NCBI GenBank assembly: GCA_022842825.1
Contig: JALHOU010000022.1
Span: 2,044-34,839 of the forward strand
Direction of reading: 5' to 3'
Length of the DNA: 32,796 nucleotides
Source of the DNA: Rubrivivax sp.
Lineage (GTDB): Bacteria; Pseudomonadota; Gammaproteobacteria; Burkholderiales; Burkholderiaceae_C
This document shows, one piece after another, positions 2,214 through 23,543 of the stretch; the first letter of the stretch is position 1, and each line of letters opens with the position of its first letter. The position numbers and the translations under genes were made by a program. Below the pieces are notes generated by a model. The model was not told where the DNA came from and did no database searches. It saw nothing but the letters and a program-made list of their open reading frames with translations.

Positions 2214-3504
2214 TCTTGACCTCCCCGCTGGCACTGATGGACCACGGGAACACCCCGTTGTGGTGTTGAACGAATCCCGTCAAGGCGCGCACCTTGGCGA
2301 TGTCGGCCACCGTGGGCTGTACGTAGCCTGTGCTGTCGACGGCGCGGCTGGCGATCTGCGCCGGGCTGCCGTCCCAGCGCCAGTTGAAGCGAAAACGGGT
2401 CAGGCACTTGTCGAGCACGGGCTCTTCGAGCCGCGCCTCCTGCCAGTTGCGCCCGCCGTCCACCGAGACGTCGACGGCCCGGATCGTGCCGTTGCCCGAC
2501 CAGGCGAAGCCCTGGATCTCCACCGGTCCCGGCCCGGCCATGCGCATGCCGCCCGAAGGATTGGTGATCACGGACTTGGCTTCCATCTCGAAGCTGAACT
2601 GGCGCCACTTGCCATCCGGCATCGGGTCGGTATAGCGCGCGGTCTCGCTGCGGAAATTCCATGGCGCGTCGCCCACCTTGATGCGTCGCAGCCACTTGAC
2701 GCTGACGTTGCCCTCCCAGCCGGGTACGAAGGCGCGCAGCGGATAACCCTGCTCGGGCCGCAGCATTTCGCCGTTCTGCCCGTACACGATGAGCACGTCG
2801 GCCAATGCCTTCTTCATCGGCACCGAACGCGTATGGCCGGCGCCGTCGGCGCCTTCGAACAGCATCCAGGTGGCCTTGGGGTCCACGCCGGCTTCCTCGA
2901 GCAACCACGACAGCGGCACGCCGGTCCACTGCCCGCACGAGAGCAGCCCATGGCTTTGCTGGACGGTGGTGGAGGCAGCCCGTGTCCAGTCGGTGAGCCC
3001 GTTGCCCGAGCACTCGAGGAAGTAGAACTTCGATACGGAGGGGTAGCGCATCAGGTCGCTCATCGTGAAGACGAGCGGCTGGCGCACCATGCCGTGCAGG
3101 ACGAGGCGGTGTTCGTCGGGATTGATGTCGGGTACGCCGGCGTGGTGGCGCTCGAAGAACAAGCCGTTGGGCGTGACGATGCCGTGCTGGTGCTGTAGCG
3201 GCGTCATGCTCCAGTCGGAGAAGTTCTGCCGGTTCACGAGCACGTCGGTGCGGTTGCGCGTGACCGTGTAGTAGCGCGAGGGCGTGCCGTAGGCCTTGGC
3301 CTCCATCGGCCGCCCGGCAGCCAGATTGCTCTTGGGGATTTCCAACGTCTGCGCGCTCGCGCCCAGCGCCACGCCACCGGCGGCGACGGCGGCACCGCGG
3401 CGCAGGAAGTTGCGCCGCTGCGCAACCACCGTGTCGGTGGACGTCGGCGCAGGGCTGGTCGGCGGCGCGCTCGTGTCGGGTCCGTCTCTTCGCTTCAGCG
3501 TCAT
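2200..3504 (-). CDS. soxC: SoxC-type molybdenum sulfite dehydrogenase, catalytic subunit
   Basis: The 434-residue protein belongs to the sulfite oxidase family, which uses Mo-pterin and oxidises sulfite to sulfate or acts as sulfane dehydrogenase in Sox systems. A Tat signal is clear, with RRNFLR near residues 30-35 followed by a hydrophobic alanine-rich stretch, so it is exported folded. The Mo-coordinating Cys lies in FYFLECSGNG. The C-terminal dimerisation domain follows, with VDVSVDGGRNW. No soxA, X, Y, Z or B gene is in the window, so simple sulfite oxidation with the SoxD-like cytochrome is the better guess. GGAGA lies just upstream of the ATG. The gene is divergent from the formate dehydrogenase operon, with a dyad pair between them. 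Confidence 0.9.
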   Translation of the reverse strand: MTLKRRDGPDTSAPPTSPAPTSTDTVVAQRRNFLRRGAAVAAGGVALGASAQTLEIPKSNLAAGRPMEAKAYGTPSRYYTVTRNRTDVLVNRQNFSDWSMTPLQHQHGIVTPNGLFFERHHAGVPDINPDEHRLVLHGMVRQPLVFTMSDLMRYPSVSKFYFLECSGNGLTDWTRAASTTVQQSHGLLSCGQWTGVPLSWLLEEAGVDPKATWMLFEGADGAGHTRSVPMKKALADVLIVYGQNGEMLRPEQGYPLRAFVPGWEGNVSVKWLRRIKVGDAPWNFRSETARYTDPMPDGKWRQFSFEMEAKSVITNPSGGMRMAGPGPVEIQGFAWSGNGTIRAVDVSVDGGRNWQEARLEEPVLDKCLTRFRFNWRWDGSPAQIASRAVDSTGYVQPTVADIAKVRALTGFVQHHNGVFPWSISASGEVKNAIA

Positions 3505-8438: not shown

Positions 8439-8478
8439 GCCGCGTGCCCCACCCCAACCACCCCCGAATGGAGCCTGC

Positions 8479-10149
8479 ATGCCCTCCGACATCGAAATTG
8501 CCCAACTCGCCAAGATGCAACGCATCTCGAAGGTGGCGCAGGAACGACTGGCCATCGCCGACGAGCACCTGGAACCCTATGGCCACTACAAGGCCAAGGT
8601 CTCGCTGGAGTACCTGGACAGCCTGAAGGGCCGCAAGGACGGCAAGCTGGTCCTCGTCACCGCCATCAGCCCCACGCCGGCCGGCGAGGGCAAGACCACC
8701 ACCACTGTGGGCCTGGGCGATGCGCTCAACCACATCGGCAAGAAGGCCGTCATCTGCCTGCGCGAGCCCTCGCTCGGGCCGGTGTTCGGCGTCAAGGGCG
8801 GCGCGGCCGGCGGCGGTTACGCGCAGGTGGTGCCGATGGAGGACATCAACCTGCACTTCACCGGCGACTTCGGCGCCATCCAGCTGGCCAACAACCTGCT
8901 GGCGGCAATGATCGACAACCACATCCACCATGGCAACGAGCTCGGCATCGACGTGCGGCGCGTGACCTGGAAGCGCGTGCTGGACATGAACGACCGCGCG
9001 CTGCGCGACATCACCGTCAGCCTGGGCGGCCCGGCCAACGGCTACCCGCGGCAAGACGGCTTCGACATCGTCGTGGCCTCGGAGGTGATGGCCATCTTCT
9101 GCCTGGCCACCTCGCTGGACGACCTGAAGACGCGGCTGGGGAACATCGTCATCGGCCACACACGCGAGCAGAAACCGGTGACGGCGCGTGACCTCCAGGC
9201 CGACGGCGCCATGACGGTGTTGCTCAAGGACGCGCTCAAACCGAACCTGGTGCAGACGCTAGAGAACAACCCGGCCTTCATCCACGGCGGCCCGTTTGCC
9301 AACATCGCCCATGGCTGCAACTCGGTGATCGCGACCAGCGCCGCGCTCAAGCTCGCCGACTACGTGGTCACCGAGGCCGGGTTCGGCGCCGACCTGGGGG
9401 CGGAGAAGTTTGTCGACATCAAGTGCCGCAAGAGCGGCTTGCGCCCGAGCGCTGCCGTCATCGTGGCCACCGTGCGTGCGCTCAAGTACCACGGCGGGCA
9501 GGACCTGAAGACCATCACCGAGGAGAACGTCGATTCGCTCGCCAAGGGCATCGTCAACCTCGAGCGCCATGTCGACAACGTGCAGCGCAACTACGGCATC
9601 CCCTGCGTGGTCTCGATCAACAAGTTCAACACCGACACCGCCGCGGAGGTGGAACTGCTGCGCGCCCGCATGTCCAAGCTGGGCGTGCCGGTGGTGCTGG
9701 CCACGCACTGGGGCGAGGGCGGCAAGGGCGCGGCCGAACTGGCGCGGGTCGTGGTCGGCCTGTGCGAGAAACCCTCAACCATGAGCTTCGTCTACGAGGA
9801 CAGCGATACGTTGTGGGAGAAGATCAACAAGGTCGCGACCAAGATCTACCACGCCGGCGAAGTGACGGCCGACGCCAAGGTCCGGGCCCAGATCGCCAAG
9901 CTGCAGCAAGACGGCTATGGTCACTACCCCATCTGCGTGGCGAAGACGCAGTACAGCTTCTCCTCGGATGCCCAACTGCGCGGCGCGCCCGAGCGCCACA
10001 CGCTGAACATCCGCGAGGTCCGGTTGGCGGCGGGCGCGGAGTTCATCGTCATGGTGTGCGGCGACATCATGACCATGCCCGGGCTGCCCAAGGTCCCTTC
10101 CGCGGTGAAGATCGACCTTGTCGGCGGCAAGGTCGTCGGCCTGTTCTGA
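8479..10149 (+). CDS. fhs: Formate-tetrahydrofolate ligase
   Basis: The 556-residue enzyme interconverts formate plus THF and 10-formyl-THF at the cost or gain of ATP. Length is that of the family. The P-loop reads [16 protein letters not shown] near residues 66-81, and the family segments [18 protein letters not shown] and FVDIKCR are intact. ATG 8479 has GGAG 6 bp upstream and begins with the expected PSDIEIAQ. It lies 40 bp after fdhA, so the two are probably cotranscribed. With FolD (19347-20240) it links methylene-THF to formate, and with formate dehydrogenase to CO2 and NADH. It could also run in the assimilatory direction. Confidence 0.96.
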
Positions 10150-10174
10150 ACCTCCAGGCCGCGCCTGTGAAGAC

Positions 10175-10211: not shown

Positions 10212-10280
10212 GCACGCTGCGGTGCGCGGCGGCCCGCATGGTATCCCCGTGCTGCCAAGGAGCAGGCGGCACGCCTACCA

Positions 10281-10297: not shown

Positions 10298-10350
10298 TTG
10301 AGTCGCATCAATCCACCCCACGCACTTTCCCAAGCAGGAGGTAACACGCG

Positions 10351-11568
10351 ATGGCTCGCAACTCTGCCCAGTGGCACGAAAAGCCGAAGTTCCCCAATTC
10401 GCACTTCGTCGATTCGCGCATCTACACCGACGACGCGCTGTTCCGCGAGGAGCAGGAGAAGATCTTCAACAAGACTTGGATCATCGCCTGCCACGAGAGC
10501 GAAGTTCCGAACGTCCACGACTACCGCACCTTCAACCACCCGGGCGGCGCCAAGCTGTTCGTCATGCGTGGCGACGACAACAAGGTGCGCTGCTTCTACA
10601 ACATCTGCCCGCACCGGGGCAACGCGCTGTTGTACGACCCGGTGGGCAACACCAAGCGCATCACCTGCATCTTCCACGCTTGGTCATTCGATGCCAAGGG
10701 CGCCTGCGTCGACATCTCGCGCGGCAAGGCCGGCTACCAGGACCGCTACGGCTGCGAAGACGCCGGCCTGCGCGAGGTGCGTACCGAAGTCGGCTTCGGC
10801 GGCTTCGTGTGGGTGGCGGTGGACGACGGCGCCTGCACGCTGAACGAATACATCGGCCCGGCGCTCGAACTGCTGGGCGACAACCTCAACGAACCGCTGG
10901 AGGTCTTCCACTACCACAAGGCCGTGGTGGAGACCAACTACAAGCTGTGGCACGACACGAACAGCGAGTTCTATCACGACTACATGCACTACTTCAATCG
11001 TGCCACCGGCATGCTGCAGCCGGGCTACTTCGACCGCAAATACACCGGCTACGCCAACGGTCATGCGTCGGTGGGCTCGATGTCGGTGAAGTACGACGCC
11101 TACGATGGCAGCAAGGCGCGCGCCGTGGGTTGGCCCGGCCTGGCCCCGGGCGGGTGGGTGCTGATAGATATCTTCCCCGGCATGACATACAACCTGCGCA
11201 CATCGGTGCTGCGCATGGATACCGCCATTCCCCTGGGGCCCAACAAGGTCGTGATCGAGTTCCGCGGCCTCGGCCTGAAGCGTGACACACCCGAGGAGCG
11301 CGCCGAGCGCATCCGCGACCACAACGTCATCTGGGGCCCGTTCGGGCGCAACCTGCACGAAGACCTGCTGGGGGTGTTCGGGCAGGGCGTGGCGATGCGT
11401 ACCGGCAGCGACAGCAAGTGGGTGCTGCATGGCCGCGAGGAGAACTCGACCATCCACGACGAGGTCGGAATGCGCCACTTCTATGGCGAATGGAGCCGTC
11501 GCATGGGGCGCGCGGCCTATGACCCGTATGGCGACAACAAGCTCGCCAAGCTGGAAAGGGCGGCGTGA
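10351..11568 (+). CDS. Rieske non-haem iron oxygenase, alpha (large) subunit
   Basis: The 405-residue hydroxylase large subunit would bind O2 and substrate at mononuclear iron. The Rieske [2Fe-2S] site is C86-P-H88 and C106-IF-H109, with 17 residues between the pairs. The iron site is in TNSEFYHDYMH: Glu206 at the bridging position usually held by Asp, then His209 and His213. That gives H-x3-H, whereas most of the family has H-x4-H. Asp338 in HEDLLGVFGQG is the likely carboxylate ligand. Together with beta, reductase and Rieske ferredoxin this has the component set of methanesulfonate monooxygenase, but MsmA is described with about 26 residues between the Rieske pairs, so it is not a classic MsmA. 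The substrate is inferred only from context. Confidence 0.9.
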   Translation: MARNSAQWHEKPKFPNSHFVDSRIYTDDALFREEQEKIFNKTWIIACHESEVPNVHDYRTFNHPGGAKLFVMRGDDNKVRCFYNICPHRGNALLYDPVGNTKRITCIFHAWSFDAKGACVDISRGKAGYQDRYGCEDAGLREVRTEVGFGGFVWVAVDDGACTLNEYIGPALELLGDNLNEPLEVFHYHKAVVETNYKLWHDTNSEFYHDYMHYFNRATGMLQPGYFDRKYTGYANGHASVGSMSVKYDAYDGSKARAVGWPGLAPGGWVLIDIFPGMTYNLRTSVLRMDTAIPLGPNKVVIEFRGLGLKRDTPEERAERIRDHNVIWGPFGRNLHEDLLGVFGQGVAMRTGSDSKWVLHGREENSTIHDEVGMRHFYGEWSRRMGRAAYDPYGDNKLAKLERAA

Positions 11569-12044
11569 TGGCCGCGCAGGACATGCAGGCCCGCGTGGCG
11601 GTCACCGAGTGCGTGCATCGCGCGGCGCTGGCGATGGACGCCAAGCAGTTCGCCGCCTTCTTCGCGCTGTGCGACGACACGTTCCACTACGCCATCACCG
11701 CGCACAGCCCCGAGATCCGCAAGGACATGATCTGGATGGAGCAAGACAAGAAGGGGCTCGAGACCCTGATCGGCAACCTGCCCAAGCACAACAGCGACCA
11801 TTCGCCGATCTCGCGCCACGTCACCGTCTACACGGTCGACTTCAATCCCGACGGCAGCGAGGCCAAGGTGGTCTCGGCCTTGCAGGTGTTCCGCACGGCG
11901 CTCGACGGCGGCGCGACCGAGCTCTTCGCGGTGGGCAAGATGTACGACACCGTTCGCCTGAGCGCCGCCGGCGCCCGCCTTGCGGACCGTCGCATCCACC
12001 TCGATACCCGCATGCTCGGCATCGGCTACCACGTGCCGTTTTGA
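11568..12044 (+). CDS. Rieske oxygenase beta (small) subunit
   Basis: The 158-residue protein has the shape of the ring-hydroxylating dioxygenase beta family (SnoaL/NTF2-like fold), a structural partner of alpha in alpha3beta3 hydroxylases. Recognisable parts are the DAKQFAAFFALCDDTFHYAI opening, the RHVTVYTVDF strand and the DRRIHLDTRMLGIGYH end. The ATG at 11568 overlaps the alpha stop as TGATG; a GTG one codon earlier is possible. The tight overlap supports coupled translation. No catalytic residues are expected in this family. It is among the shorter members. Confidence 0.85.
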   Translation: MAAQDMQARVAVTECVHRAALAMDAKQFAAFFALCDDTFHYAITAHSPEIRKDMIWMEQDKKGLETLIGNLPKHNSDHSPISRHVTVYTVDFNPDGSEAKVVSALQVFRTALDGGATELFAVGKMYDTVRLSAAGARLADRRIHLDTRMLGIGYHVPF

Positions 12045-12066
12045 AGCTGCGCGACGCCACGGCCCG

Positions 12067-13110
12067 ATGAAGATCCAGCTCAACGCCCGCAATCGCGCGC
12101 ATCTGTTCGAGGCGCGGGCGGGGGTGTCCGTTCTCGAGTCCGGGCTGGCCGGGGCCGTGAACCTGCCCTACGAATGCGGCAGCGGCACCTGCGGCACCTG
12201 CAAGGCCAAGCTGGTTGCCGGGGAGTTGCATGACGCCTGGCCGCAAGCGCCCGGCCGCAAGTACCTGAAGCAACCCGCGGACTTCTTGATGTGCCAGTGC
12301 CAGGCCCGCTCGGACCTGGTGATCGAGGTGGGCAGCTTCGTGCACTCGATGGACGCCGGTGCCTGCGTTCCGGCGGCGGCCCAGGGCGAGGTGGTGCAGG
12401 CGCGTCTGCTGACGCACGACGTGGTGCTTCTGGAGATCGAGCTGTCGCAGCCGATGCCCTTCGACGCGGGTCAGTACGCGCTGGTGCGCGTGCCGGGCAT
12501 CGACGGCTACCGGGGCTGGTCGATGGTGAACTACGCGCACCGGCCGCAGCGGTTGCAGTTCGTGGTCAAGCGCAAGCCGGGCGGTGCGGTGTCCGAGTGG
12601 TTGTTCGGCGGCGCCAGCGTCGTGGGTGCCCGGCTCGATCTGTTCGGCCCCATGGGCCACGCCACCTTTCACCCGCACCTGGGCAAGAACCTGCTGTGCA
12701 TCGCCGGGGGCAGCGGCATCGCCGGCATGATGTCGATCCTCAGCCGCGCGGTGCAGGAGGGTTACTTCGCGCAGTTCGATGGCCACGTGTGCTTTGGCGT
12801 GCGCACCATGCGTGACGCGTTCTTTCTGGAAGAGCTGGCGGCCCTGCGTCGCCAGGCGGGCCAGCGGCTGGCGGTGACCGTGGCCTTGTCCGACGCCGAG
12901 GTGCAGCCGGCCGAGGCGGCGGCCCACCCTGCGCTGCGCTTCGACCACGGCTACGTGCACGAGGTGGCCAAGCGCATGATGGACGGCCGCTTCGCCAATA
13001 CACGCGCCTACATCGCCGGCCCGCCGCCGGTGGTGGACGGCAGCATCCGCTTCCTGCTGCTCGAGGCCAAGCTCGCGGCAGATCACATCAAGTACGACAA
13101 GTTCAGTTGA
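12067..13110 (+). CDS. Oxygenase reductase: plant-type ferredoxin plus FAD/NAD(H) domains
   Basis: The 347-residue protein would carry electrons from NADH to the Rieske components. The N-terminal [2Fe-2S] domain (residues 1-95) has C37, C42 and C45 in ECGSGTCGTC, with the fourth Cys in FLMCQCQ. A ferredoxin-NADP+ reductase-like module follows: the FAD-binding RGWSMVN segment, then the nucleotide-binding LLCIAGGSGIAGMM. The C-terminal AYIAGPPPVVDG closes the NAD domain. The layout is that of benzoate/toluate dioxygenase-type reductases, which normally need no separate ferredoxin, yet a Rieske ferredoxin gene follows after 16 bp. The electron route could therefore be branched or three-part. Confidence 0.92.
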   Translation: MKIQLNARNRAHLFEARAGVSVLESGLAGAVNLPYECGSGTCGTCKAKLVAGELHDAWPQAPGRKYLKQPADFLMCQCQARSDLVIEVGSFVHSMDAGACVPAAAQGEVVQARLLTHDVVLLEIELSQPMPFDAGQYALVRVPGIDGYRGWSMVNYAHRPQRLQFVVKRKPGGAVSEWLFGGASVVGARLDLFGPMGHATFHPHLGKNLLCIAGGSGIAGMMSILSRAVQEGYFAQFDGHVCFGVRTMRDAFFLEELAALRRQAGQRLAVTVALSDAEVQPAEAAAHPALRFDHGYVHEVAKRMMDGRFANTRAYIAGPPPVVDGSIRFLLLEAKLAADHIKYDKFS

Positions 13111-13126
13111 ATCGCGCGGCAACCCG

Positions 13127-13855
13127 ATGAGCAAGACACTCGTGTGCAAGGTGGCCGATGTGCCGTTGAACGGCACCCACCGCGTCGACCTGCCCAGCGG
13201 CCTGAAGGTGCTGGTCGCCAACGCCGAAGGCAAGCTGTACGCCTACCCCGGCATCTGTCCGCACCAGGACGTGGACCTGGGCGAAGGCTTCTTCGATGGC
13301 AAGACGCTCACCTGCCACCAGCATCTGTGGCAGTGGGACATCCACAGCGGCAGCGCCGTCGGCTTGGCCGAGGCGCCGCTGGAGCAGTATGCGCTCGAGG
13401 TGCGCGGCGACGATGTGTTGATCGGCCAGGAGAGCGCGCTCAATGCGTGCGAGCTCTTCGTCGGCCTGCCATCGGTGTTGCTCGCGCGGCTGGACAAGCT
13501 GGCCACGCGGCGCGAGTACAAGGCCGGCGAGTACGTCTACAAGGTGGGCGACCCGGCGGAACACTTCCATGTGCTCGAGGCGGGGCGCGTGGAGTTCCTG
13601 ATCGGCCGCGACGAGCGCATGAGCGCGGCCGGCTTCATGCTGAAGAAGGGCGAGCTCTTCGGCTGGGCGGCGCTGCTGGAGAAGATGCCGCGTCGCATCG
13701 CCAGCGCCAGGTGCCACGAAGACTCTGCGGTGTTGTGCCTGAACGGTGCAGAAACGCTCAAGGTTCTGGAGTCCGCTCCCGAGTCAGCCTACGCCGTCAT
13801 GCGCAAGCTCTGCGCCACGATCACGAGATACCTATCTGTTGAAGGGGCGACATAG
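13127..13855 (+). CDS. Rieske ferredoxin fused to a cyclic-nucleotide-binding-fold domain
   Basis: This 242-residue protein joins two modules. Residues 1-103 are a Rieske ferredoxin with C44-P-H46 and C63-HQ-H66 sixteen residues apart, similar to small ferredoxins of multicomponent oxygenases. Residues 109-235 are a CNB/CRP-like beta-roll, with YVYKVGDPAEHFHVLEAGRV and the binding-cassette segment GELFGWAALLE followed by RRIASA. The Glu that normally contacts the ribose is replaced by Trp, while the phosphate Arg is retained. There is no helix-turn-helix, so it is not a CRP-type regulator. I infer ligand-gated or localised electron transfer to the oxygenase. The reading frame is continuous with no internal stop. 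Confidence 0.88.
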   Translation: MSKTLVCKVADVPLNGTHRVDLPSGLKVLVANAEGKLYAYPGICPHQDVDLGEGFFDGKTLTCHQHLWQWDIHSGSAVGLAEAPLEQYALEVRGDDVLIGQESALNACELFVGLPSVLLARLDKLATRREYKAGEYVYKVGDPAEHFHVLEAGRVEFLIGRDERMSAAGFMLKKGELFGWAALLEKMPRRIASARCHEDSAVLCLNGAETLKVLESAPESAYAVMRKLCATITRYLSVEGAT

Positions 13856-13941
13856 ACGTCGATGCATTCCCGGGCGCCATCCCAGAGCGGAACAACCGCC
13901 AACGCCCACGTTCCACCACTCACCACCCTGGAGGTAGACAA

Positions 13942-15054
13942 ATGAGTGTCCCTGTTTCCCGACGCCTGGCGTCGATGATGATGGCCTTCGCCGCAGTCGC
14001 GGCCCCGCTTGCCGCTGTCGCCCAAGACTTCGGCAAGCCCGGCGAACCGATCAAGCTGGTCGTCGGCTACCAGCCCTATTACGCGCAGGCCTGGTCGGCG
14101 GCGGTGATGCGTGGCAAGGAGATGTGGAAGAAGTACCTGCCACCGGGCTCGACGGTGGAGTTCCAGGTCGGTCTGCAAGGCGCCGTCATCGTCAACCAGA
14201 TGCTGGCCGGCAAGCAGCAGATCGGCTACATGGGCGACATGCCTGCGATCGTCTCGACCACCAAGCAGGAGGTGGCTGATGTGCGCATCGTGGCCACGCT
14301 GGGCCTGGGCAAGGACAACTGCAACATCTTCCTCACGCGCACCGATGCGCCGCAGTTCAAGAGTCCCAAGGAAGCGCTGGCCTGGCTCGACGGCAAGCAG
14401 GTTGCGGTGCCCAAGGGCAGCTGCACCGACCGCTACGCCCAGACCGTTTTCCGCAAGGAGAACATCAAGCCGGCGGCCTACCTGAACCAGAACATCGAGG
14501 TCATCACCAGCAACTTCAAGGCCGGAAAGCTGGACGCCGCGGTGGTGTGGGAGCCCACCGCGTCCAAGCTGGTGGATGAAGGCCTGGCCCGGCGCGTCGC
14601 CTCCGGCGCGAGTGTCGACGAGATCGACGGCGGCTTCATGGCCATGCGCTACGACCTGATCCAGGCCCGCCCCGATGTGGTCAAGGGCTGGCTGCAGGCC
14701 GAGCTCGATGCCCAACTCTTCATCGCCGACCCCCGCAATGCCGCCGAGATGGTGAAGCTGATCGCGGCGCAGACCACCGGCTTCTCCGACAAGGTCCTGT
14801 TCCGCGCCTACTACGGTCAGGCGCCGGCGGCGCAAGGCGGCACCGACGTGCGCAATTCGCTGGAGTACACGCTGACACCGGCCGCCATGGAGCTGATCAC
14901 GCGAGCCACCGCCTTCCTGTTCTCGGCGAAGAGCATCAACGTCGAGAAGCTGCGCCCGGAGGCGGTGATGCCGCAGTTCACGCAGGAGATCCTCAGGGAA
15001 CGCAAGCTGACGGCACCGATTGCGCAGGTGCGTTCGATGCCCGACCCGAAGTAG
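13942..15054 (+). CDS. Periplasmic substrate-binding protein, NitT/TauT (NMT1-like) ABC family
   Basis: The 370-residue protein has a signal peptide ending at AAVA before QDFG and then a NMT1/TauA-like fold with GEPIKLVVGYQPYYAQAW. This family binds sulfonates, nitrate, bicarbonate, riboflavin or thiamine precursors, so the ligand cannot be named from family alone. The segments GYMGDMPAIV and LDAAVVWEPTASKLV are typical of the ligand cleft. GGAGG at 13930-13934 precedes the ATG. It is the first transporter gene, 86 bp after the Rieske ferredoxin fusion, and a GC-rich hairpin follows it. It is the likely capture protein for the oxygenase substrate. Confidence 0.9.
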   Translation: MSVPVSRRLASMMMAFAAVAAPLAAVAQDFGKPGEPIKLVVGYQPYYAQAWSAAVMRGKEMWKKYLPPGSTVEFQVGLQGAVIVNQMLAGKQQIGYMGDMPAIVSTTKQEVADVRIVATLGLGKDNCNIFLTRTDAPQFKSPKEALAWLDGKQVAVPKGSCTDRYAQTVFRKENIKPAAYLNQNIEVITSNFKAGKLDAAVVWEPTASKLVDEGLARRVASGASVDEIDGGFMAMRYDLIQARPDVVKGWLQAELDAQLFIADPRNAAEMVKLIAAQTTGFSDKVLFRAYYGQAPAAQGGTDVRNSLEYTLTPAAMELITRATAFLFSAKSINVEKLRPEAVMPQFTQEILRERKLTAPIAQVRSMPDPK

Positions 15055-15102: not shown

Positions 15103-15143
15103 TGCGTGCCACGTCAGTGGACCGGACAGGACCAGAGGGGACT

Positions 15144-16511
15144 ATGAGTGAACACGCCGGCGCGCCCGACGAAGAGCTGATCGCGCTGCTCAAGCGCACG
15201 CTGCCGTTCAGTTCTGTCAGCGCGGAGATCCTCCAGCGCGTGGCGGCGTTGTCGCGCCGCGAGATCTTCGGCCCCGGGCGCAGGCTGTACAACGTGGGCG
15301 ACGCCTCCGACGATGTCTACGTGGTGCTGTCGGGTTCCGTACAGCACACGCTGGGCGCCGAGGTCGGAGCCAAGGACGCGCTGCGCATCCTGGTGCCCGG
15401 CGAGGTCTTTGGCTGGGCCGCGTTGCTGGAGTCGCAACCCGGGCGCCTGGCCACGGCCACCACGCTGGAGCGCTCGGAGCTGGTCCGCATCAACGGCGAG
15501 GCGCTGCTTGGCATCCTCGACGCCGACCCCGCGGCCGGCCAGGTGGTGATGAGCCGGTTTGCAGCCCTGATCAATACCGACTACACGGTGCCGGAAGCGC
15601 GTGCGCGCGTGCGCGGCGTGACCAGCGTTGCGCCGGCGGCGCGGCCGGCGACAGCGCCGCAGCGAGGCGCGATGAGCGGCCTGGCGCTCAACGTGTACCG
15701 CATTTCGCAGTGGCTGAAGAGCCCGCGGCCCTACTTCATGGTGCTCGGCTTTGCCATCTTTCTTGGCTTCTGGTACCTCGCGACCGAGGTCTGGCGCCTG
15801 CCGCGCTTCAAGGAGATGCCGGGCCTGACCGTGGTGCTCAAGGAGTGGCTCAACCCCGATCCGGTCTACGGCCTGTCGCTGCACTCGCCCGAGTACTACA
15901 CGCACATCTGGTTCAGCGTGCGTCGCGTGGCGCTGGCCTTCTTCCTGGCCACCGCGCTCGGGGTCCCGCTGGGGCTGTTTCTCGGCTGGTCGCAGAAGTT
16001 CCGCGAGTACGTCTTCCCTGTCTTCGAGACGCTCAGGCCGATCCCGATCCTGGCCTGGGTGCCGCTGTCGATCCTGATGTTCAAGCTGCCCGAGTCCTCG
16101 GTGCTGTTCCTCACGTTCCTGGCGTCGTTCTTCGCCACTGCCTTGAACACCATGCTGGGCGTGCAGTCCATCGACGAGTCGTACACGCGCGCCGCGTCGT
16201 GTCTGGGCGCCAGCAAGTGGCAGGTGTTTCGCCACGTCATCGTGCCCGGCTCGCTGCCCTTCGTCTTCACGGGGCTGCAGATCTCGGTGGGCGTGGCCTG
16301 GTTCTCGCTGGTGGCCGCCGAGATGGTGTCGGGCCAGTATGGACTGGGTTACGTCATCAACACCTCGTACACCGACGTCAAGTACCCGACCATCGTGATC
16401 GGCATGATCACGCTGGGCGCCGTCGGCTACATCACCAGCGCCATGGTGCGCATCGCAGGAGACCATTTGATGCAGTGGCGCGTGCGTGAACTCGCGTTGG
16501 GTGGCCGGTGA
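15144..16511 (+). CDS. CNB-domain/ABC permease fusion (NitT/TauT type)
   Basis: The 455-residue protein begins with a CNB-fold domain at residues 10-145 (RLYNVGDASDDVYVVLSGSV, then GEVFGWAALLE and GRLATA). A Pro/Ala-rich linker leads to an ABC permease from about residue 185. The permease has its EAA loop at RAASCLGASKWQ..HVIVPGSLP, which docks the ATPase. ATG 15144 with AGAGGGG just upstream is preferred over GTG 15117. An internal ATG at 15672 has GAGG 4 bp before it and would give a normal-sized 279-residue permease without the CNB domain. I infer that the cytosolic N-terminal domain could gate transport. The stop overlaps the next gene as TGATG. Confidence 0.88.
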   Translation: MSEHAGAPDEELIALLKRTLPFSSVSAEILQRVAALSRREIFGPGRRLYNVGDASDDVYVVLSGSVQHTLGAEVGAKDALRILVPGEVFGWAALLESQPGRLATATTLERSELVRINGEALLGILDADPAAGQVVMSRFAALINTDYTVPEARARVRGVTSVAPAARPATAPQRGAMSGLALNVYRISQWLKSPRPYFMVLGFAIFLGFWYLATEVWRLPRFKEMPGLTVVLKEWLNPDPVYGLSLHSPEYYTHIWFSVRRVALAFFLATALGVPLGLFLGWSQKFREYVFPVFETLRPIPILAWVPLSILMFKLPESSVLFLTFLASFFATALNTMLGVQSIDESYTRAASCLGASKWQVFRHVIVPGSLPFVFTGLQISVGVAWFSLVAAEMVSGQYGLGYVINTSYTDVKYPTIVIGMITLGAVGYITSAMVRIAGDHLMQWRVRELALGGR

Positions 16512-17371
16512 TGAATGCCATGCAAGAGGCCTCGGCCCTGAAGCAGCGGCTTACCAAGGGTGCGATCCGCATCGACGATGTGGTCAAGACCTACGACCCC
16601 GACGGTGCCGCCGTGATGGCGGTGGACCATTGCTCGCTCGACATCGCCGCCGGCGAGATCTGCATGATCGTTGGCCCCTCGGGCTGCGGCAAGACGACGC
16701 TGTTGAACGCCATCGCGGGCTTCCACAGCATCACCTCGGGCGCCATCTACCTGGACGGCGAGATGCTGTGCGGGCCGGGCAAGCCGATGGCCGAACCGAG
16801 CTCCGAGCGGATCGTCGTCTTCCAGAACGGCGCCTTGTTCCCGTGGAAGACGAACCTCGAGAACGTGGCCTTCGGGCCGATGATGCAGGGCAAGCTCTCC
16901 AAGAAGCAGGCCCACGAGAAGGCGCGCGCCATGATGGCCGATGCCGGCTTGTCCGGCACGGAGCACAACTTCCCGGGTGAAGTGTCCTCGGGCCTGCGGC
17001 GCCGGGTGGAGATCGTGCGCGCGCTCATGAACGATCCGAAGGTGCTGCTGTTCGACGAGCCGTACCGCGCGCTCGATTCGCTGACCAAGTCGGTGATGCA
17101 CGAGGCGCTGCTGGAGATCTACTACAAGAACAACGTCACCATCTTCTTCATCACGCACGACCTCGAAGAGGCCATCTTCCTCGGCCACAAGCTGGTGATC
17201 ATGACCACACGCCCCTGCCGCCCCAAGAAGATCCTGACGGTGGACATCCCGCATCCTCGCGACTACGGTGTGCTGACCTCGCGCCGCTTTCGCGAGCTGA
17301 TGGAAGAGACCAGCGAAGCCGTGCACGAAGAGGCGCGCAAGGCTTTCGCTGCTGGCGAAAAGGAGGGCTGA
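16511..17371 (+). CDS. ABC importer ATPase 1, with altered signature motif
   Basis: This 286-residue NitT/TauT-type ATPase has Walker A GPSGCGKTT, the Q-loop in VVFQNGALFPW, Walker B LLFDEPYRALD with its catalytic Glu, and the switch His in FFITHDLEEA. The signature motif reads VSSGL where most family members have LSGGM/Q. It therefore provides a complete Walker/H side but a weak signature side. The second ATPase at 18207 has the opposite defect, suggesting a heterodimer. The ATG at 16511 overlaps the permease stop; ATG 16520 is an alternative. Confidence 0.92.
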   Translation: MNAMQEASALKQRLTKGAIRIDDVVKTYDPDGAAVMAVDHCSLDIAAGEICMIVGPSGCGKTTLLNAIAGFHSITSGAIYLDGEMLCGPGKPMAEPSSERIVVFQNGALFPWKTNLENVAFGPMMQGKLSKKQAHEKARAMMADAGLSGTEHNFPGEVSSGLRRRVEIVRALMNDPKVLLFDEPYRALDSLTKSVMHEALLEIYYKNNVTIFFITHDLEEAIFLGHKLVIMTTRPCRPKKILTVDIPHPRDYGVLTSRRFRELMEETSEAVHEEARKAFAAGEKEG

Positions 17372-17373: not shown

Positions 17374-18204
17374 GTGGCCAGGAAAGGCGGTGGATTCTTC
17401 GGCTGGCTCGCGAGCCGGAGCACGCGGCGCGCCATCGTGGCGTTGGTGGTGTTCGTGGTGCTGTGGGAAATCGGCTCGCGCTCCAAGCAATGGCTGGGCT
17501 TCGAGATGCCATGGGTGAGCAAGGTGCCGCCGCCCTCCAGTGTGGTCGTGGCCTGGTCGGGCCTGGTGGGCGACCTCGGTTACTGGCAGAGCTGGCTGAT
17601 GAGCGGCATGCGGGTTCTCAGCGGGTTCTTCGCGGCCATGGTCGTTGGCATCCCCTTGGGGCTGGCGATGGCGGTCAGCCGCACCTTCCATGGCGTGGCC
17701 TTTCCCACCTTCGAGGTGCTTCGGCCGATCCCGCCGCTGGCCTGGGTGCCGGCGTCGATCATCTTCTGGCCGACGCAGGAGTTGTCGATCGCGTTCGTCA
17801 CTTTCCTCGGCGCCTTCTACACCATCGTCCTCAACGTGGTCGGGGGCGCACGCTCGATCGACGTGCGCTACTTCCAGGCCGCGCAGGCCATGGGATCTTC
17901 GCAATGGGACATCTTCCGCCGCGTGGTGCTGCCGGCTACGCTGCCCTCCATCATCGTCGGCGCCGCGGTGGGCATGGGCATCACGTGGGAGGTGGTGGTG
18001 GCCGCAGAGATGATCTCCGGTGGCGGCAGCCAGATGGGCGGGGCCGGCGGGGGCCTGGGCTTCTTCATCTGGAACTCCTATCTCGGCGGTTCGTATCAGC
18101 AGATCGTGGTCGGCATGATCAGCATCGGCATTGCCGGCTTCCTGTGCAGCGAGGCGCTGCGGCATCTCGGCGGGTACCTTACGCCGTGGCAGAAACGGAG
18201 ATGA
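17374..18204 (+). CDS. ABC importer permease 2, NitT/TauT type
   Basis: The 276-residue inner-membrane permease lacks the CNB extension of its partner. Multiple hydrophobic spans include IVALVVFVVLWEIG and FVTFLGAFYTIVLNVVGG, and the EAA coupling loop reads QAAQAMGSSQWD..RVVLPATLP. The start is GTG, two bases after the previous stop, with AGGAGGG at 17361-17367. It would pair with permease 1 to form a heterodimeric channel. A Gly-rich loop near GGGSQMGGAGGG in the late part is longer than I expect for SsuC-type permeases. Confidence 0.92.
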   Translation: MARKGGGFFGWLASRSTRRAIVALVVFVVLWEIGSRSKQWLGFEMPWVSKVPPPSSVVVAWSGLVGDLGYWQSWLMSGMRVLSGFFAAMVVGIPLGLAMAVSRTFHGVAFPTFEVLRPIPPLAWVPASIIFWPTQELSIAFVTFLGAFYTIVLNVVGGARSIDVRYFQAAQAMGSSQWDIFRRVVLPATLPSIIVGAAVGMGITWEVVVAAEMISGGGSQMGGAGGGLGFFIWNSYLGGSYQQIVVGMISIGIAGFLCSEALRHLGGYLTPWQKRR

Positions 18205-18206: not shown

Positions 18207-19091
18207 ATGACCACCGAGACACCGGCGCTGGTGCGCCCGGTCGTGCGCGCCGGCGAGATCCGGGTCGACAACGTGAGCAAGGAGTATGGCGCCGGAGAGC
18301 TGTACAAGAGCGTTGTCAAGGACTGCTCCTTCACGGTCGAACGCGGCAAGCTCACGGTGATGATCGGGCCTTCGGGCTGCGGCAAGAGCACGCTGATCCG
18401 GCTCATGGCGGGCTTCGAGAAGCCCACTTCGGGCACCGTGCTGCTGAACGGAAAGCCCGTCGCCGGCCCGGGGCGCGACCGCCTCGTCGTGTTCCAGGAG
18501 ACGGCGCTGTTCCCGTGGATGACGACCTACGACAACATCATGTTCGGCCCGCGCGCGCGCGGCGAGGACGATGCGCAGGCCAAGGCCCTGGCCGAATTCC
18601 TGCTGGACAAGGTGGGCTTGAAGCAGTTCCGGGACAAGTATCCGCCGCAGCTCTCCGGCGGCATGCAGCGGCGCGCCGAACTGGCGCGCGCCATGATCAA
18701 CAACCCCGAGGTCATGATCCTCGACGAACCCTTCCGCGGCCTGGACGAGATGTCCAAGGAGCTGATGTGGGAGTACTACGCGCGTCTGTACGAGGAGTCG
18801 CGCCGCACCAACTTCTTCGTCACCACCGACATCGACGAGGCCATCTTCCTGGCCGACCGGCTGCTCATCATGAGCAACATCCCGACCCAGGTGTGCGCCG
18901 TGATGGAAGTCGACCTGCCGCGCCCGCGCAAGCTCTCCGACATGGTCGACAGCGACCGTGCCAACCAGATCAAGATGGCCGCGCTGTCGGTGCTGCACCG
19001 CGAGGCCATGAAGTCCTTTGCCGGCGGCAGCCGGGCCGCGACGGACTTCATCGAGGCCTATTCCAAGCGCGTCAGGAAGCCTGCACCCTGA
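18207..19091 (+). CDS. ABC importer ATPase 2, with altered H-loop
   Basis: The 294-residue ATPase has Walker A GPSGCGKST, the Q-loop in VVFQETALFPW, a canonical signature LSGGMQRRAELARAM and Walker B MILDEPFRGLDE. The switch-region His is replaced by Thr (FFVTTDIDEA). With ATPase 1 this places both altered residues at one composite site and leaves the other canonical. ATG 18207 has GGAG 6 bp upstream; ATG 18201, which overlaps the permease stop as ATGA, is the alternative. Confidence 0.92.
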   Translation: MTTETPALVRPVVRAGEIRVDNVSKEYGAGELYKSVVKDCSFTVERGKLTVMIGPSGCGKSTLIRLMAGFEKPTSGTVLLNGKPVAGPGRDRLVVFQETALFPWMTTYDNIMFGPRARGEDDAQAKALAEFLLDKVGLKQFRDKYPPQLSGGMQRRAELARAMINNPEVMILDEPFRGLDEMSKELMWEYYARLYEESRRTNFFVTTDIDEAIFLADRLLIMSNIPTQVCAVMEVDLPRPRKLSDMVDSDRANQIKMAALSVLHREAMKSFAGGSRAATDFIEAYSKRVRKPAP

Positions 19092-19346: not shown

Positions 19347-20240
19347 TTGAGTGCGAAGATCATCGACGGCAACGCCATCGCCAGGCTGGTGCGCGCCGAG
19401 TGGCGAGAGCGCGTGCGCGCCTTGCATGAAGCCGGCGTGACGCCCGGCCTGGCGGTCATCGTCGTCGGCGACAACCCGGCCTCGCATGTGTATGTGCGGC
19501 ACAAGACCCGGGCCTGCGCCGATCTGGGCATGCACTCCGAGAAGCACGAGTTCCGCGACGATGCGGCAGAGCACGAAGTGGTGCGGCGCATCGCGCAGCT
19601 GAATGCCGACGCGCGCATCCACGGCATCCTGGTGCAGTTGCCGCTGCCGCCGCACTTCGATGCCCGCCGCGTGCTCGAGGCCATCCATGTCGAGAAGGAC
19701 GTGGACGGGTTCAATCTCTACAACGTCGGCGCGCTGGTGGCCGGCCAGACGGTGTTCCCGCCTTGCACGCCCTTCGGCGTGTTGTGCATGCTGGAGTACA
19801 GCCGGATCCCGATCGCCGGCCAGAACGTGGTGGTCGTGGGGGCCAGCAACATCGTGGGCAAGCCGATGGCGATGATGCTGATGAAGCGCGATGCCACCGT
19901 CAGCATCTGCCACGTCAAGACCCGCGATCTGGCGCAGTACACCATCCTCGCCGACATCCTTGTGGTTGCCGCCGGCAAGCCCGATCTGATCACGGCGCCG
20001 ATGGTGCGCACCGGTGCGGTGGTGATCGATGTGGGCATCAACCGCCTTCCCGATGGGCGGCTGGTGGGCGACGTGGACTTCGAGGGCGTGAAGGCGAAGG
20101 CCTCTCACATCACGCCCGTGCCCGGCGGCGTGGGGCCGATGACGGTGACCATGCTGCTGGTCAACACGATCCAGGCGGCCGAGCGCCACGCCGGGCTTGC
20201 CGTGCGCGCGGCAAGCGACCTGGTGCCGGGGTTCGCCTAG
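19347..20240 (+). CDS. folD: Methylene-THF dehydrogenase/methenyl-THF cyclohydrolase
   Basis: The 297-residue bifunctional enzyme interconverts 5,10-methylene-THF and 10-formyl-THF in the cytoplasm. The catalytic Lys lies in YVRHKTRAC. HGILVQLPLP and the PCTPFGV segment are family hallmarks, and the NADP site includes VVVGASNIVGKP. The C-terminal PGGVGPMTVTMLL is intact. The start is TTG at 19347 with GGAG 8 bp upstream; the resulting SAKIIDG matches the usual N terminus. It is the last gene of the oxygenase/transporter operon, placing C1-THF oxidation directly with the oxygenase. A housekeeping folD elsewhere in the genome is likely. Confidence 0.95.
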   Translation: MSAKIIDGNAIARLVRAEWRERVRALHEAGVTPGLAVIVVGDNPASHVYVRHKTRACADLGMHSEKHEFRDDAAEHEVVRRIAQLNADARIHGILVQLPLPPHFDARRVLEAIHVEKDVDGFNLYNVGALVAGQTVFPPCTPFGVLCMLEYSRIPIAGQNVVVVGASNIVGKPMAMMLMKRDATVSICHVKTRDLAQYTILADILVVAAGKPDLITAPMVRTGAVVIDVGINRLPDGRLVGDVDFEGVKAKASHITPVPGGVGPMTVTMLLVNTIQAAERHAGLAVRAASDLVPGFA

Positions 20241-20248: not shown

Positions 20249-20284
20249 GATCGGTGCCTGCGCCGCCAGGCTTGGTGGCCGATC
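20249..20284. terminator. Possible shared transcription end between convergent operons
   Basis: An imperfect inverted repeat runs from GATCGG to CCGATC with an inner CTG..CAG pairing, between the folD stop and the stop of the convergent gcvT-like gene. No T-run is present on either side, so termination is only suggested. Confidence 0.25.
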
Positions 20285-21422
20285 ACAACGCAGGCTGGGC
20301 GCGAGGCCGCGTGCGGGGCGCGTCCCGGAACGGCAGGCGGTTCACTGTGGCCAGCCGGCCGTCCATTGAGCGCAGCCGATCGCCCGGCGCCGCGTCGGCG
20401 TCGACCCAGCCCAAGCCGATCGGCCGATGCAGGGTCGGCGATTCACACTCGCTGCTCACGCTGACGCGGCCCGATCGGCCTGGATGCCCCGTACGACGTG
20501 TACGTCCCGCAAGTTCCGGACACCCCGCAGGTGTCGGACCCCCCGGCTGCGCAGGCCCCGGCGCTTCGAAGCACAGCCCGACCAGGCGGCATGAGGGCGC
20601 CGCGAAGCGCTGCCGGCGCAGCGCTTCGCGGCCGATGAACGGACCCGCACCGTTCAGGTCCACCAGTCGCGCGAGGCCCAGCGCCTGCGGGGAGGGCGCT
20701 GCCACCAACTCGCGGCTGAAGAGCACATGGCCGGCCTCGATGCGCAGCGAGTCCGCGGCCTCGAAGCCGCACTCCAGCAACCCGTGCCCGGTACCCAGGG
20801 CCACCAGCCGCTGCCACAACGCCGGGCCGTGCGATGCGGCGGCGATGATCTCGTAGCCCAACTCGCCGCTGTAGCCCAGCCGGCCCACGCAAACCTCGAT
20901 CCCGTCGACGCACGCCATCGCGAAGCCGAAGTAGGGCAGCGCACGCACTGACGCGGCCCCCAGCAGCTGGGCCAGCAGTCGCGCACTGCGCGGGCCTTGC
21001 AGGGCCAGCACGGCCTGCGGCGCAATCATCGGCACCACGGCGACTCCCAGGCGCCGGCACAACTGCGCGATGCGGCCGGCCTCATCGCGGCGCCCGGCAA
21101 AGAGCCAATAGCGGTCGACCGCCAGGCGCCACACAGTGGCATCAATGACCACGCCGCCAGCGTCGTTCAACATCAGCGTGTAGGCGATGCGCCCCGGGTG
21201 CAATGCCCGCAGGTTGCGTGTCTGCATCTGCGCCAGCGCGTCGCAGGCGGCGCGCCCGCTGAAGTGCCAGGCGCCCATGAAGGAGAAGTCGAACAGCCCC
21301 ACCTGCTCGCGCGTGGCGTGGTGTTCCAGCACCGCATCGGTGAAGCGCAGCGGCACGCTGCCGCCGCCCGGCAGGGCTTGCAGCTCGACGCCACGTCGGC
21401 GAAACCATGCTTGCAGATCCAT
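20283..21422 (-). CDS. GcvT/aminomethyltransferase-like folate protein
   Basis: The 379-residue protein has the GcvT fold used by glycine-cleavage T protein, THF-dependent demethylases and YgfZ. Seen are REQVGLFDFSFMGAWHFSG near the N terminus, the YSGELGYEI motif and the GLARLVDLNGAGPFIGREAL segment. A likely role is moving a one-carbon group to or from THF, which would fit FolD and Fhs; the donor is not known. No gcvP or gcvH is nearby. Between CFEAPGPA and SPTLHRPIGLGWV it contains extra low-complexity residues encoded by an 18-bp repeat, probably on a surface loop. It is the last gene of the panB operon, 12 bp after the TauE gene. Confidence 0.85.
   Translation of the reverse strand: MDLQAWFRRRGVELQALPGGGSVPLRFTDAVLEHHATREQVGLFDFSFMGAWHFSGRAACDALAQMQTRNLRALHPGRIAYTLMLNDAGGVVIDATVWRLAVDRYWLFAGRRDEAGRIAQLCRRLGVAVVPMIAPQAVLALQGPRSARLLAQLLGAASVRALPYFGFAMACVDGIEVCVGRLGYSGELGYEIIAAASHGPALWQRLVALGTGHGLLECGFEAADSLRIEAGHVLFSRELVAAPSPQALGLARLVDLNGAGPFIGREALRRQRFAAPSCRLVGLCFEAPGPAQPGGPTPAGCPELAGRTRRTGHPGRSGRVSVSSECESPTLHRPIGLGWVDADAAPGDRLRSMDGRLATVNRLPFRDAPRTRPRAQPAL
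20483..20536 (-). repeat. Imperfect 18-bp tandem repeat inside the gcvT-like gene
   Basis: On the minus strand three adjacent 18-mers are related: ACCTGCGGGGTGTCCGGA, ACTTGCGGGACGTACACG and a more diverged third unit TCGTACGGGGCATCCAGG. The period keeps the reading frame, so the insert adds about 18 residues to the protein rather than breaking it. Confidence 0.6.
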
Positions 21423-21434: not shown

Positions 21435-22175
21435 CTAGAACGTGCGCAGCAGCAGCACCGCGCCGACGACGAGGCACAGCACGGCCGCGCCGCGCTTGAG
21501 CTGGCCGGTGCTGGCCACATGCGCGAGCTTCACGCCGGCCATCACGCCTAGCAGCTCGAAGCCGGTGACCAGCAGCACGAGGTGGCCGTCGACCGCGCCG
21601 TAGGACAGGTTGGCCACCGTGCCCGCTGCGGCCGAGACGATCTGCAGTGCCTGGCTGGTGCCCACTGCCATCAACGGCGCAAAGCCGAACATCATCATCA
21701 GCGGCACCGAGAACAGCGGGCCTCCGGCGCCCGAGAGCCCCGAGCCGAATCCTGCCGCGGCACCGACAAAGACCAGCAGCCAGCGCTCCTGCGCGGGCGT
21801 ACGCGGGCGCGCCGCCTGGTTGCGTGGCGGCAAGAAGATGTAGCAGCCGGCAAAGATGATGAGGCCGGCGATGATGCGCGTCAGCGCCACCGGGCTGAAG
21901 CCCTTGGCGGCCACCGCGCCCAGGGCGCTGAAGGCGACGGCAGCGGCGCAGACCACGGCGGTCTGACGCCAATCGATGCTGCCTTTTCGCTGGAAGAGCC
22001 AGGTGCCCAGCAGCCCGGTGAAGAAAAAGGTGGCCAGCGCGGTGGCCGCCGCCGCATGCGGCCCCAGGCCACCAAAGGCGATGAGCGCGGGCACCAGCAG
22101 CACGCCGCCGATGCCGACCGCGCCGATGAGGATGCCCACCACCAGGGCCACCGCGGCCAGCGCGAGGAAGCCCAT
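21435..22175 (-). CDS. TauE/SafE family membrane exporter
   Basis: The 246-residue integral membrane protein belongs to the TauE/SafE (DUF81) family, members of which are linked to sulfite, sulfonate or sulfoacetate export. About eight hydrophobic segments are visible, with the repeated family signatures IGAVGIGGVLLVPAL in the first half and GFGSGLSGAGGPLFSVPLMM in the second. It lies between the CNB gene and the gcvT-like gene in one operon. With soxCD in the same putative regulon, removal of sulfite released by the oxygenase is a reasonable inference. Substrate specificity cannot be read from sequence. Confidence 0.9.
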   Translation of the reverse strand: MGFLALAAVALVVGILIGAVGIGGVLLVPALIAFGGLGPHAAAATALATFFFTGLLGTWLFQRKGSIDWRQTAVVCAAAVAFSALGAVAAKGFSPVALTRIIAGLIIFAGCYIFLPPRNQAARPRTPAQERWLLVFVGAAAGFGSGLSGAGGPLFSVPLMMMFGFAPLMAVGTSQALQIVSAAAGTVANLSYGAVDGHLVLLVTGFELLGVMAGVKLAHVASTGQLKRGAAVLCLVVGAVLLLRTF

Positions 22176-22664: not shown

Positions 22665-23543
22665 CTACTTCTTCCAGCCCACCAGCTGCTTGAACTTGGC
22701 CAGCTCGTCTTCCTTCATGAACACGGTGTGCTCGGGCCCGGGGTAGCGGCGGTTCTTCACGTCGTCCATGTACTCGCTGTAGCCGGCCTCGAGGATGGGC
22801 ACGAGGTCGCGGTAGATCTTCGAGTGCCGCGGTACATGCTTCTCGTAGAGGTGGAACAGGTCCGAGCCGATGATGTGCACGCCGTCGGCACGGTTGCCCG
22901 CACCCAGGCTGATGACGGGCACCGGCAGCACCTCGGCCAGGTATTCGCAGACCTCGGAGGTCGTGACCTCGCACATGATCGAGAAGCAGCCGGCGTCGAC
23001 GAAGGCCCAGGCATCGTCGATGAGCTCCTTGGCGCGGTCGGCCGTCTTGCCCTGGGCCACGAACCCGCCGAGCTGCGGCATGCGCATCGGGCAGATGCCG
23101 ATGTGGCCCTGCACCGGGATGCCGGCCTTGACGATGGCCTCGATGTTCTTGGCGTGGTGCTGGTTCCCCTCGCACTTCATGACCTCGGCGCCGGCCTGGG
23201 CCACGTACTTGGCGGCGTTCTCCACCGCCTGCATCGGCGAGAGGTGGAAGCTCATGTAGGGCATGTCGACCATGCGCAGCCCGTACTGCGAGCCGCGCTT
23301 GACGGCCTGCGCCATGAACATCACTTCCTCGAACGACACCGAGGTGGTGCTCTCGTGGCCAAACAAGACCATGCCGCCGGTGTCGCTGACGCACAGGATG
23401 TCGATGCCCAGGCGGTCGGCGACGATGGCGTTCTCGTAGTCGTACACGGCCAGCTGGACGATCGGTTCCTTCTTCTTGCGCTTTTCCATCAGCATCGGGA
23501 TGGTGACCTTCTTGCGCTTGGGTGCCTGGGCCTCGGTGGACAT
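22665..23543 (-). CDS. panB: Divergent ketopantoate hydroxymethyltransferase-like enzyme
   Basis: The 292-residue protein belongs to the PanB family, whose housekeeping members transfer the C1 unit of methylene-THF to alpha-ketoisovalerate. The metal ligands appear kept: Asp54 in VSDTGGM (canonical GDSLGM), Asp93 in VDMPYM and Glu125 in KCEGN. Glu192 aligns with the catalytic base. Many surrounding motifs differ, and an N-terminal Lys-rich extension is present. No panC is adjacent. It is headed by a strong sigma54 promoter match and a dyad shared with the oxygenase operon, so a specialised C1 role with another 2-oxo acid is as likely as pantothenate synthesis. GAGGAAG precedes the ATG. Confidence 0.88.
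   Translation of the reverse strand: MSTEAQAPKRKKVTIPMLMEKRKKKEPIVQLAVYDYENAIVADRLGIDILCVSDTGGMVLFGHESTTSVSFEEVMFMAQAVKRGSQYGLRMVDMPYMSFHLSPMQAVENAAKYVAQAGAEVMKCEGNQHHAKNIEAIVKAGIPVQGHIGICPMRMPQLGGFVAQGKTADRAKELIDDAWAFVDAGCFSIMCEVTTSEVCEYLAEVLPVPVISLGAGNRADGVHIIGSDLFHLYEKHVPRHSKIYRDLVPILEAGYSEYMDDVKNRRYPGPEHTVFMKEDELAKFKQLVGWKK

Follow-up and report, generated by a model that had tools for sequence, protein, structure and literature searches.

A Rieske ferredoxin fused to a divergent cyclic nucleotide-binding-type domain in a methanesulfonate monooxygenase-like operon

Control of Rieske oxygenases is usually seen as a matter of transcription and of substrate gating of the catalytic component. 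Here we describe an open reading frame of 242 codons (13127-13855, forward strand) in a 32,796-nucleotide stretch of DNA from Rubrivivax sp. (contig JALHOU010000022.1, hereafter the window), which encodes a Rieske ferredoxin joined to a domain of the cyclic nucleotide-binding (CNB) superfamily, in an operon resembling that of methanesulfonate monooxygenase (MSAMO). The published msm region of Filomicrobium comprises TauE, GcvT, PanB-like, SoxC, SoxD, msmABCD and msmEFGH (PMC4433239). According to the same source, isolates with proven growth on methanesulfonate all have a 26-residue spacer in the Rieske motif of the oxygenase alpha subunit MsmA, and Methylibium petroleiphilum and Methyloversatilis universalis have one of 17 residues. 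The second point of comparison is HoxI, a CNB protein of hydrogenase clusters (PMC12319191); in the soluble hydrogenase of Cupriavidus necator the NADPH activation site is a dimer of HoxI seated on the diaphorase, and NADPH activated only the six-subunit enzyme, which carries HoxI (PMC3702609). The window encodes alpha, beta, ferredoxin and reductase in a single operon, and an msmEFGH-type importer lies nearby. Since the spacer of its alpha subunit has 17 residues and not the 26 of MsmA, we do not claim plain membership of MSAMO.

The fusion protein and its distribution

The Rieske domain (residues 4-80) and the cNMP-binding domain (residues 128-215) are both above their Pfam cut-offs and are read in one continuous frame, as the initial annotation of this DNA had claimed. 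Structure prediction, proposed there as a check, gave a Rieske ferredoxin fold followed by a CNB fold, in agreement with the PF00027 match, with a C-helix predicted at residues 218-238 that closes the CNB. The cluster ligands C44, H46, C63 and H66 (CXH-X16-CXXH) are kept in 42/42 aligned fusions, and the solved relatives of the Rieske part include T4moC (1vm9, E 9.3e-17) and MsmC (8jng, E 3.4e-4). The CNB adds about 139 residues to this part. The helix-turn-helix that lies C-terminal in CRP/FNR regulators was not found in the fusion, which has only the two Pfam domains and ends after the C-helix, at residue 242. Judged by sequence and gene context, the product is the putative ferredoxin of the MSAMO-like operon, with a presumed role in electron transfer.

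A search of about 5.8 billion proteins (E<=1e-3) found 1269 relatives of the fusion, and the 120 listed, 55-97% identical, all have both domains. A scan of GTDB species genomes yielded 48 loci: 38 with the fusion (L021-L058, L057 being cut by the contig end), six with a Rieske-only ferredoxin at the same place (L059-L062, L064, L066), two that form a branch with the 26-residue alpha spacer (L063, L065) and two CNB proteins without a Rieske match (L067, L068). A sequencing error or frameshift as the origin of the fusion is ruled out by its presence in all 120 listed homologues and in 38 loci of named genomes. Going by the titles of their records, most hosts belong to the Betaproteobacteria and some are given as Gammaproteobacteria; the most distant fusion locus is from a Thioalkalivibrio metagenome-assembled genome (MAG; L055, 44%). 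No single chain with both Rieske and CNB was found among the fold-search matches listed, which is no proof of absence. No description of a Rieske-CNB or CNB-permease fusion was found in the literature searched, mostly without subscription papers, and the available text of papers naming both Rieske and cyclic nucleotide-binding domains described no such fusion; within that literature, the view that no oxygenase ferredoxin carrying a CRP-like domain has been described holds. A CNB protein controlling an electron-transfer enzyme does have a precedent, HoxI.

A reductase gene lies at most 400 bases upstream in 38/38 fusion loci, and 36 of them also have a gene for a binding protein, the two misses (L040, L057) ending shortly past the fusion; transport genes lie upstream in L053. 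Within the order, 13 of 399 genomes have an alpha relative at E<=1e-100, and 12 were read (G042 was left out). All nine other genomes whose alpha is at least 72% identical have a Rieske-CNB protein beside alpha or, in G084, on another contig continuing the reductase. For the extra alpha copies (55-62% identity) of G084, G128 and G168 no adjoining fusion of their own was seen, with a Rieske-only match in L080; a Rieske-only match was also obtained for G330 (alpha 44%) and none for G085 (alpha 42%). For most genomes, this search and the phylum-wide one described below scored no more than four candidates each, so weaker matches may be missed. Among plasmids, 97 records matched, none covering more than 80% of the query.

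Substitution ratios (dN/dS, NG86) in 13 pairs were 0.03-0.14 for the CNB and 0.01-0.22 for the Rieske part, the CNB being lower in 8 of the 13; the values are rough, as dS is high in several pairs. The CNB of the fusion is under purifying selection and is not decaying.

Some public labels in this family are misleading. Fusions, and also free CNB proteins that have no Rieske domain, are called 'toluene monooxygenase system ferredoxin subunit', and some host labels are doubtful: the 'Rhizobium' MAG of L026 is nearly identical in the fusion gene to Thiobacillus (L023), and two 'Bordetella parapertussis' MAGs (L060, L061) carry an operon of this kind.

Three CNBs with a Trp/Arg signature

The same divergent CNB occurs three times in the window, on the ferredoxin, on one importer permease and as a free 153-residue protein (Table 1); the two further copies had been missed in the initial annotation. 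We aligned 40 ferredoxin, 37 permease and 13 free CNBs, the last from all loci with a free CNB of the ferredoxin/permease type, window included. At the phosphate-cassette position where canonical CNBs have Glu, Trp is present in 90/90; the FGE of the canonical 5kbf aligns with the FGW of the free CNB. The cassette reads mostly FGWA, with FGWN in three ferredoxins, IGWA in three permeases and FGWS in one permease and one free CNB. The later cassette Arg is present in 39/39 readable ferredoxin, 36/37 permease and 13/13 free CNBs (88/89). Within the fusions, F178, G179, W180, R190 and A192 are invariant in 42/42, so that the cassette Glu was found in none of them, Trp180 standing in its place. 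With a looser motif, the Trp was seen in 119/120 fusions, 120/120 free CNBs and 119/120 permeases among the listed homologues, and the two misses show no motif match at all. The signature sets these domains apart from the rest of the genome, which has 23 PF00027 matches, three of them inside the window: 12 of the other 20 were readable at the cassette position (8 were not), with Glu in 10, Met in one, Leu in one and Trp in none. The cassette Glu of cyclic-nucleotide CNBs contacts the ribose. GWA with the following Arg may serve as a sequence marker for the short-spacer branch of putative sulfonate oxidation.

The permease carrying a CNB is as unusual an architecture as the Rieske-CNB fusion. 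Of 205 homologues found by its CNB region, the 120 listed all have both domains, and a permease match was obtained in 169 of 398 genomes of the phylum, where among the matches listed only the genome itself and G300 also match the CNB part. In the model of the permease, which is middling (pLDDT 73.3) and was used for the CNB and linker alone, a helix at residues 138-155 ends the CNB and a low-confidence stretch (residues 170-186) joins it to the permease. The L045 permease (12016-13941) bears two CNBs in tandem, a form that P0242 and P0243 (616 residues) may share.

In a tree of the three classes with eight sufficiently long other CNBs of the genome, the ferredoxin (40/40, support 0.82), permease (37/37, 1.0) and free CNBs (13/13, 0.99) each form one clade; the permease clade also takes in two CNBs of L032 and L057. 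The ferredoxin and permease clades are sisters, with a joint support of 0.98. The node joining all three classes is weak (0.14), and addition of the outliers L067, L068 and L027 places two genome CNBs inside; mean identity among the three classes is 0.29-0.35 vs 0.20-0.24 to the other CNBs of the genome.

The CNBs of ferredoxin and permease also tend to be lost together. In 45 tabulated loci the permease has a CNB in 41; both proteins have it in 39, the ferredoxin alone in one (L038), the permease alone in two (L059, L061) and neither in three (L060, L062, L066). This association (Fisher p 0.0027, or 0.018 with L062 and L066 as one event, the other loci being treated as independent and kinship uncorrected) is suggestive. 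Of 54 loci considered, the table leaves out seven without a readable permease (L022, L040, L051, L057, L063, L064 and L065) and L089; duplicate contigs were counted once (L069=L023, L070=L045, L075=L028, L076=L041, L084=L049), L071 and L079-L083 were untabulated, and the permease state was set by hand where the best match began late. In the corresponding tree, which lacks genes for some rows and places L065 and L066 oddly, the six loci in which at least one of the two CNBs is missing fall among loci that bear them, a placement that favours loss. L089 (G480), considered as a possible CNB-free relative, has the importer and formate-tetrahydrofolate ligase (FTHFS), but its stretch gave no match to Rieske or oxygenase, and it served as outgroup only. 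The genomes of L062, L064 and L066 (1.7-2.0 Mb, of unstated completeness), which have Rieske-only ferredoxins, yielded no such CNB at E<=1e-12.

Possible roles of the CNBs

We tentatively favour, at somewhat less than even confidence, a model in which a divergent CNB that does not read cyclic nucleotides senses a common pathway ligand and tunes the electron delivery and the substrate uptake of the MSAMO-like system together. The system would oxidise a small sulfonate to sulfite and a one-carbon (C1) unit. The CNB of the fusion would be a divergent CRP-type sensor blind to cyclic nucleotides, and ferredoxin, permease and free CNB would bind one and the same small ligand. This is plausibly a pathway anion such as the sulfonate, sulfite or formate, and it would be held by the Trp together with the cassette Arg that has been kept. 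Its binding may shift the C-helix and thereby adjust electron delivery to the oxygenase and uptake jointly, keeping sulfite and C1 intermediates in check. That the cassette is so well conserved argues for a ligand, and the new Trp with the kept Arg for one that is small, anionic and partly hydrophobic rather than a cyclic nucleotide; the CNB common to ferredoxin and importer argues for joint control or for physical docking. As a weak hint of a C1 ligand, CNBs with the same Trp lie near FTHFS, divergent from it in L068 (10004-11918) and upstream in L032 (4332-6918) and L057 (3913-6931); the neighbours of the outlying CNB L067 gave no ligand lead. In its strictest form, which we regard as possible and rather doubtful, the model describes a post-translational circuit private to the pathway, in which one CNB lineage reading a non-nucleotide anion was copied onto ferredoxin, importer and free protein, so that one metabolite would set uptake and electron supply. 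If true, this would be, to our knowledge, the first instance of a ligand directly controlling a Rieske electron carrier, and would add a new class to the ligands of CNBs.

Several points weigh against this model. The Trp could take up the pocket and leave no room for a ligand. The three CNBs are not strictly interdependent, as seen in L059, L061, L038 and L060, the last still having in its genome a strong CNB match in a 191-residue frame that is probably a free CNB. A second, Rieske-only ferredoxin lies beside the fusion in L050, L052 and L056, and given these loci the fusion need not be the main electron carrier and could be a regulator rather than a bulk carrier. The one HoxI sequence compared (hoxI from pHG1) carries Glu where these CNBs have Trp, and lacks their cassette Arg. 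Finally, methanesulfonate use by the clade with the 17-residue spacer is itself presumed from sequence.

The strongest alternative is docking, in which the C-helices of the ferredoxin and permease CNBs would pair and hold electron supply and oxygenase at the importer for channelling, ligand-free, with the free CNB as competitor or cap. CRP pairs through its C-helix, and both models close the CNB with a helix, that of the permease being followed by the low-confidence link to the membrane protein; the sister relationship of the two clades and their tendency to joint loss also fit. We nevertheless consider docking alone rather unlikely, because pure docking has no need of the strong cassette conservation and because the permease CNB occurs without that of the ferredoxin in L059 and L061, and the reverse in L038. 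Ligand-dependent docking would fit all data. The two options of the initial annotation, regulation through a small ligand or partner recruitment, are still the right pair, with the correction that the ligand is not expected to be cAMP, the canonical Glu being missing.

Redox sensing in the manner of HoxI, with NADPH or NADH bound to the CNB and the reductase-ferredoxin chain and importer activated or throttled by reducing power, is improbable. Over 108 residues HoxI shares 26% identity with the ferredoxin CNB, and NADPH activates the C. necator hydrogenase only with HoxI (PMC3702609); action of a CNB on a redox enzyme through a non-cAMP ligand is thus already known from that work, but the pocket here differs. 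The HoxI-type cassette, with Glu kept and no Arg, was not found in the fusion, whose cassette residues are the reverse, and for this reason the HoxI ligand is not simply transferable; moreover, the CNB on the permease has no HoxI counterpart and the match of HoxI to the free CNB is weak (26.6 bits). A similarly slim chance is left to the CNB being a structural or stabilising tail inherited by descent, without regulatory role. The six related loci whose ferredoxin has no CNB do indicate that the domain is unneeded for electron transfer as such, whereas a dN/dS like that of the Rieske part, a single origin with wide retention and the same module on the permease argue against a mere tail. Control by cAMP, cGMP or another cyclic nucleotide through an altered pocket, tying the pathway to carbon status, is the least probable reading, as the Trp removes the ribose contact in every aligned fusion and most readable CNBs elsewhere in the genome keep Glu, none having Trp. 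Classical cAMP control is unlikely, and a common ligand other than cAMP or CNB-CNB docking is more likely, although sequence alone does not decide.

The operon, its putative substrate and known systems

The genes surrounding the fusion are listed in Table 1. A formate-dehydrogenase-like molybdopterin protein is also among the outer neighbours, and the sigma-54 activator is a possible regulator of the locus. The PanB-like enzyme is 72-88% identical in syntenic loci (some matches partial), where it lies beside the free CNB or TauE.

Table 1. Features of the window with their positions, strands and the basis of each assignment.
Feature	Position	Strand	Basis
Cytochrome c adjoining SoxC-type sulfite dehydrogenase	1611..2234	-	Pfam
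SoxC-type sulfite dehydrogenase	2200..3504	-	TIGR04555, 607.8 bits vs cut-off 420
Formate-tetrahydrofolate ligase (FTHFS)	8479..10149	+	PF01268, E 6.1e-266
Rieske oxygenase alpha, MsmA-like, CXH-X17-CXXH	10351..11568	+	Pfam, translation, relatives
Oxygenase beta subunit	11565..12044	+	Pfam Ring_hydroxyl_B
Reductase (Fer2, FAD, NAD domains); true start maybe a few codons off	12070..13110	+	Pfam
Rieske-CNB ferredoxin	13127..13855	+	Pfam, homologues, structure model, fold search
Sulfonate-type ABC substrate-binding protein	13942..15054	+	NMT1_2; SsuA_fam E 1.5e-26 but below cut-off
CNB (aa 51-136) fused to ABC permease (aa 282-447)	15117..16511	+	Pfam, structure model
ABC ATPase 1	16508..17371	+	Pfam
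Second ABC permease, without CNB	17374..18204	+	Pfam
ABC ATPase 2	18207..19091	+	PF00005, E 2.2e-35
FolD	19347..20240	+	Pfam
GcvT-family C1 transferase	20283..21422	-	Pfam
TauE/SafE sulfite exporter family protein	21435..22175	-	Pfam
Free-standing CNB protein, 153 aa	22199..22660	-	Pfam E 2.3e-15, homologues
PanB-like ketopantoate hydroxymethyltransferase	22665..23543	-	Translation; TIGR00222, 213.8 bits vs cut-off 207.55
Response-regulator/sigma-54 activator	23740..25920	-	Pfam

The substrate is fairly likely to be methanesulfonate or another small sulfonate. Among loci with the motif read, the 26-residue spacer is found only in L050, L052, L063 and L065. The last of these is from Variovorax sp. 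WS11, which has a Rieske-only ferredoxin and did not grow on methanesulfonate (PMC7143210), and for this reason the 26-residue spacer alone is no proof of use. In Methyloversatilis FAM5 the genes for methanesulfonate stayed silent in the conditions of one study (PMC5023235), and the record of Thiobacillus thioparus DSM 505, home of L023, is in an omitted branch of one MsmA/MsmE tree (PMC5068391). In L050 and L052 (about 6340-10730) an alpha with the 26-residue spacer, a beta subunit and their own Rieske-only ferredoxin are followed by the same kind of reductase, Rieske-CNB protein, binding protein and CNB-permease. Here the oxygenase may have been exchanged while the supply module stayed constant, and the arrangement suggests that the module with the CNBs works for an identical or closely related substrate. 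We do not call the separate L050 ferredoxin MsmC, as its closest solved chain is T4moC and 8jng is not among its matches.

The ferredoxin has a conserved domain for sensing or docking, with a counterpart on the importer, and this points to control through the supply of electrons, which becomes testable with purified parts. It suggests that in bacteria seemingly feeding on small sulfonates one signal, or one docking contact, governs both uptake and breakdown. Alongside HoxI, the fusion is also a compact example of a CNB that has apparently given up cyclic nucleotides.

Compared with described systems, the gene list of the window is close to that of the Filomicrobium msm region apart from the CNBs and some folate genes (PMC4433239). 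The component set, transporter and neighbours are those of the msmABCD/msmEFGH system (PMC4433239, PMC5068391), from which the window differs in the 17-residue alpha spacer, the CNB on ferredoxin and one permease, and the ferredoxin gene placed after the reductase gene. With the oxygenase Rieske ferredoxins T4moC, BphA3 and MsmC the fusion has in common the Rieske fold, the CXH-X16-CXXH motif and a gene adjoining those of reductase and oxygenase; the solved ones are mostly chains of 102-115 residues without a CNB. With the CNBs of CRP/FNR proteins (GlxR, CRP, 3mdp) it shares the beta-roll, the C-helix and the cassette Arg, and it departs from them in having no helix-turn-helix, Trp for the cassette Glu and a redox protein as fusion partner. 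The shell proteins of family 2B encapsulins also carry a CNB in a non-regulator, with a weak profile match to the window CNBs (E 4.7e-7, below cut-off), and unlike the fusion they have no Rieske domain; the title of one paper ties a family 2 encapsulin to sulfur metabolism (PMC8049743). HoxI, as far as described, resembles the CNB of the fusion in acting on an electron-transfer enzyme without a helix-turn-helix, and is unlike it in being a separate subunit, not joined to an iron-sulfur protein and with no permease partner.
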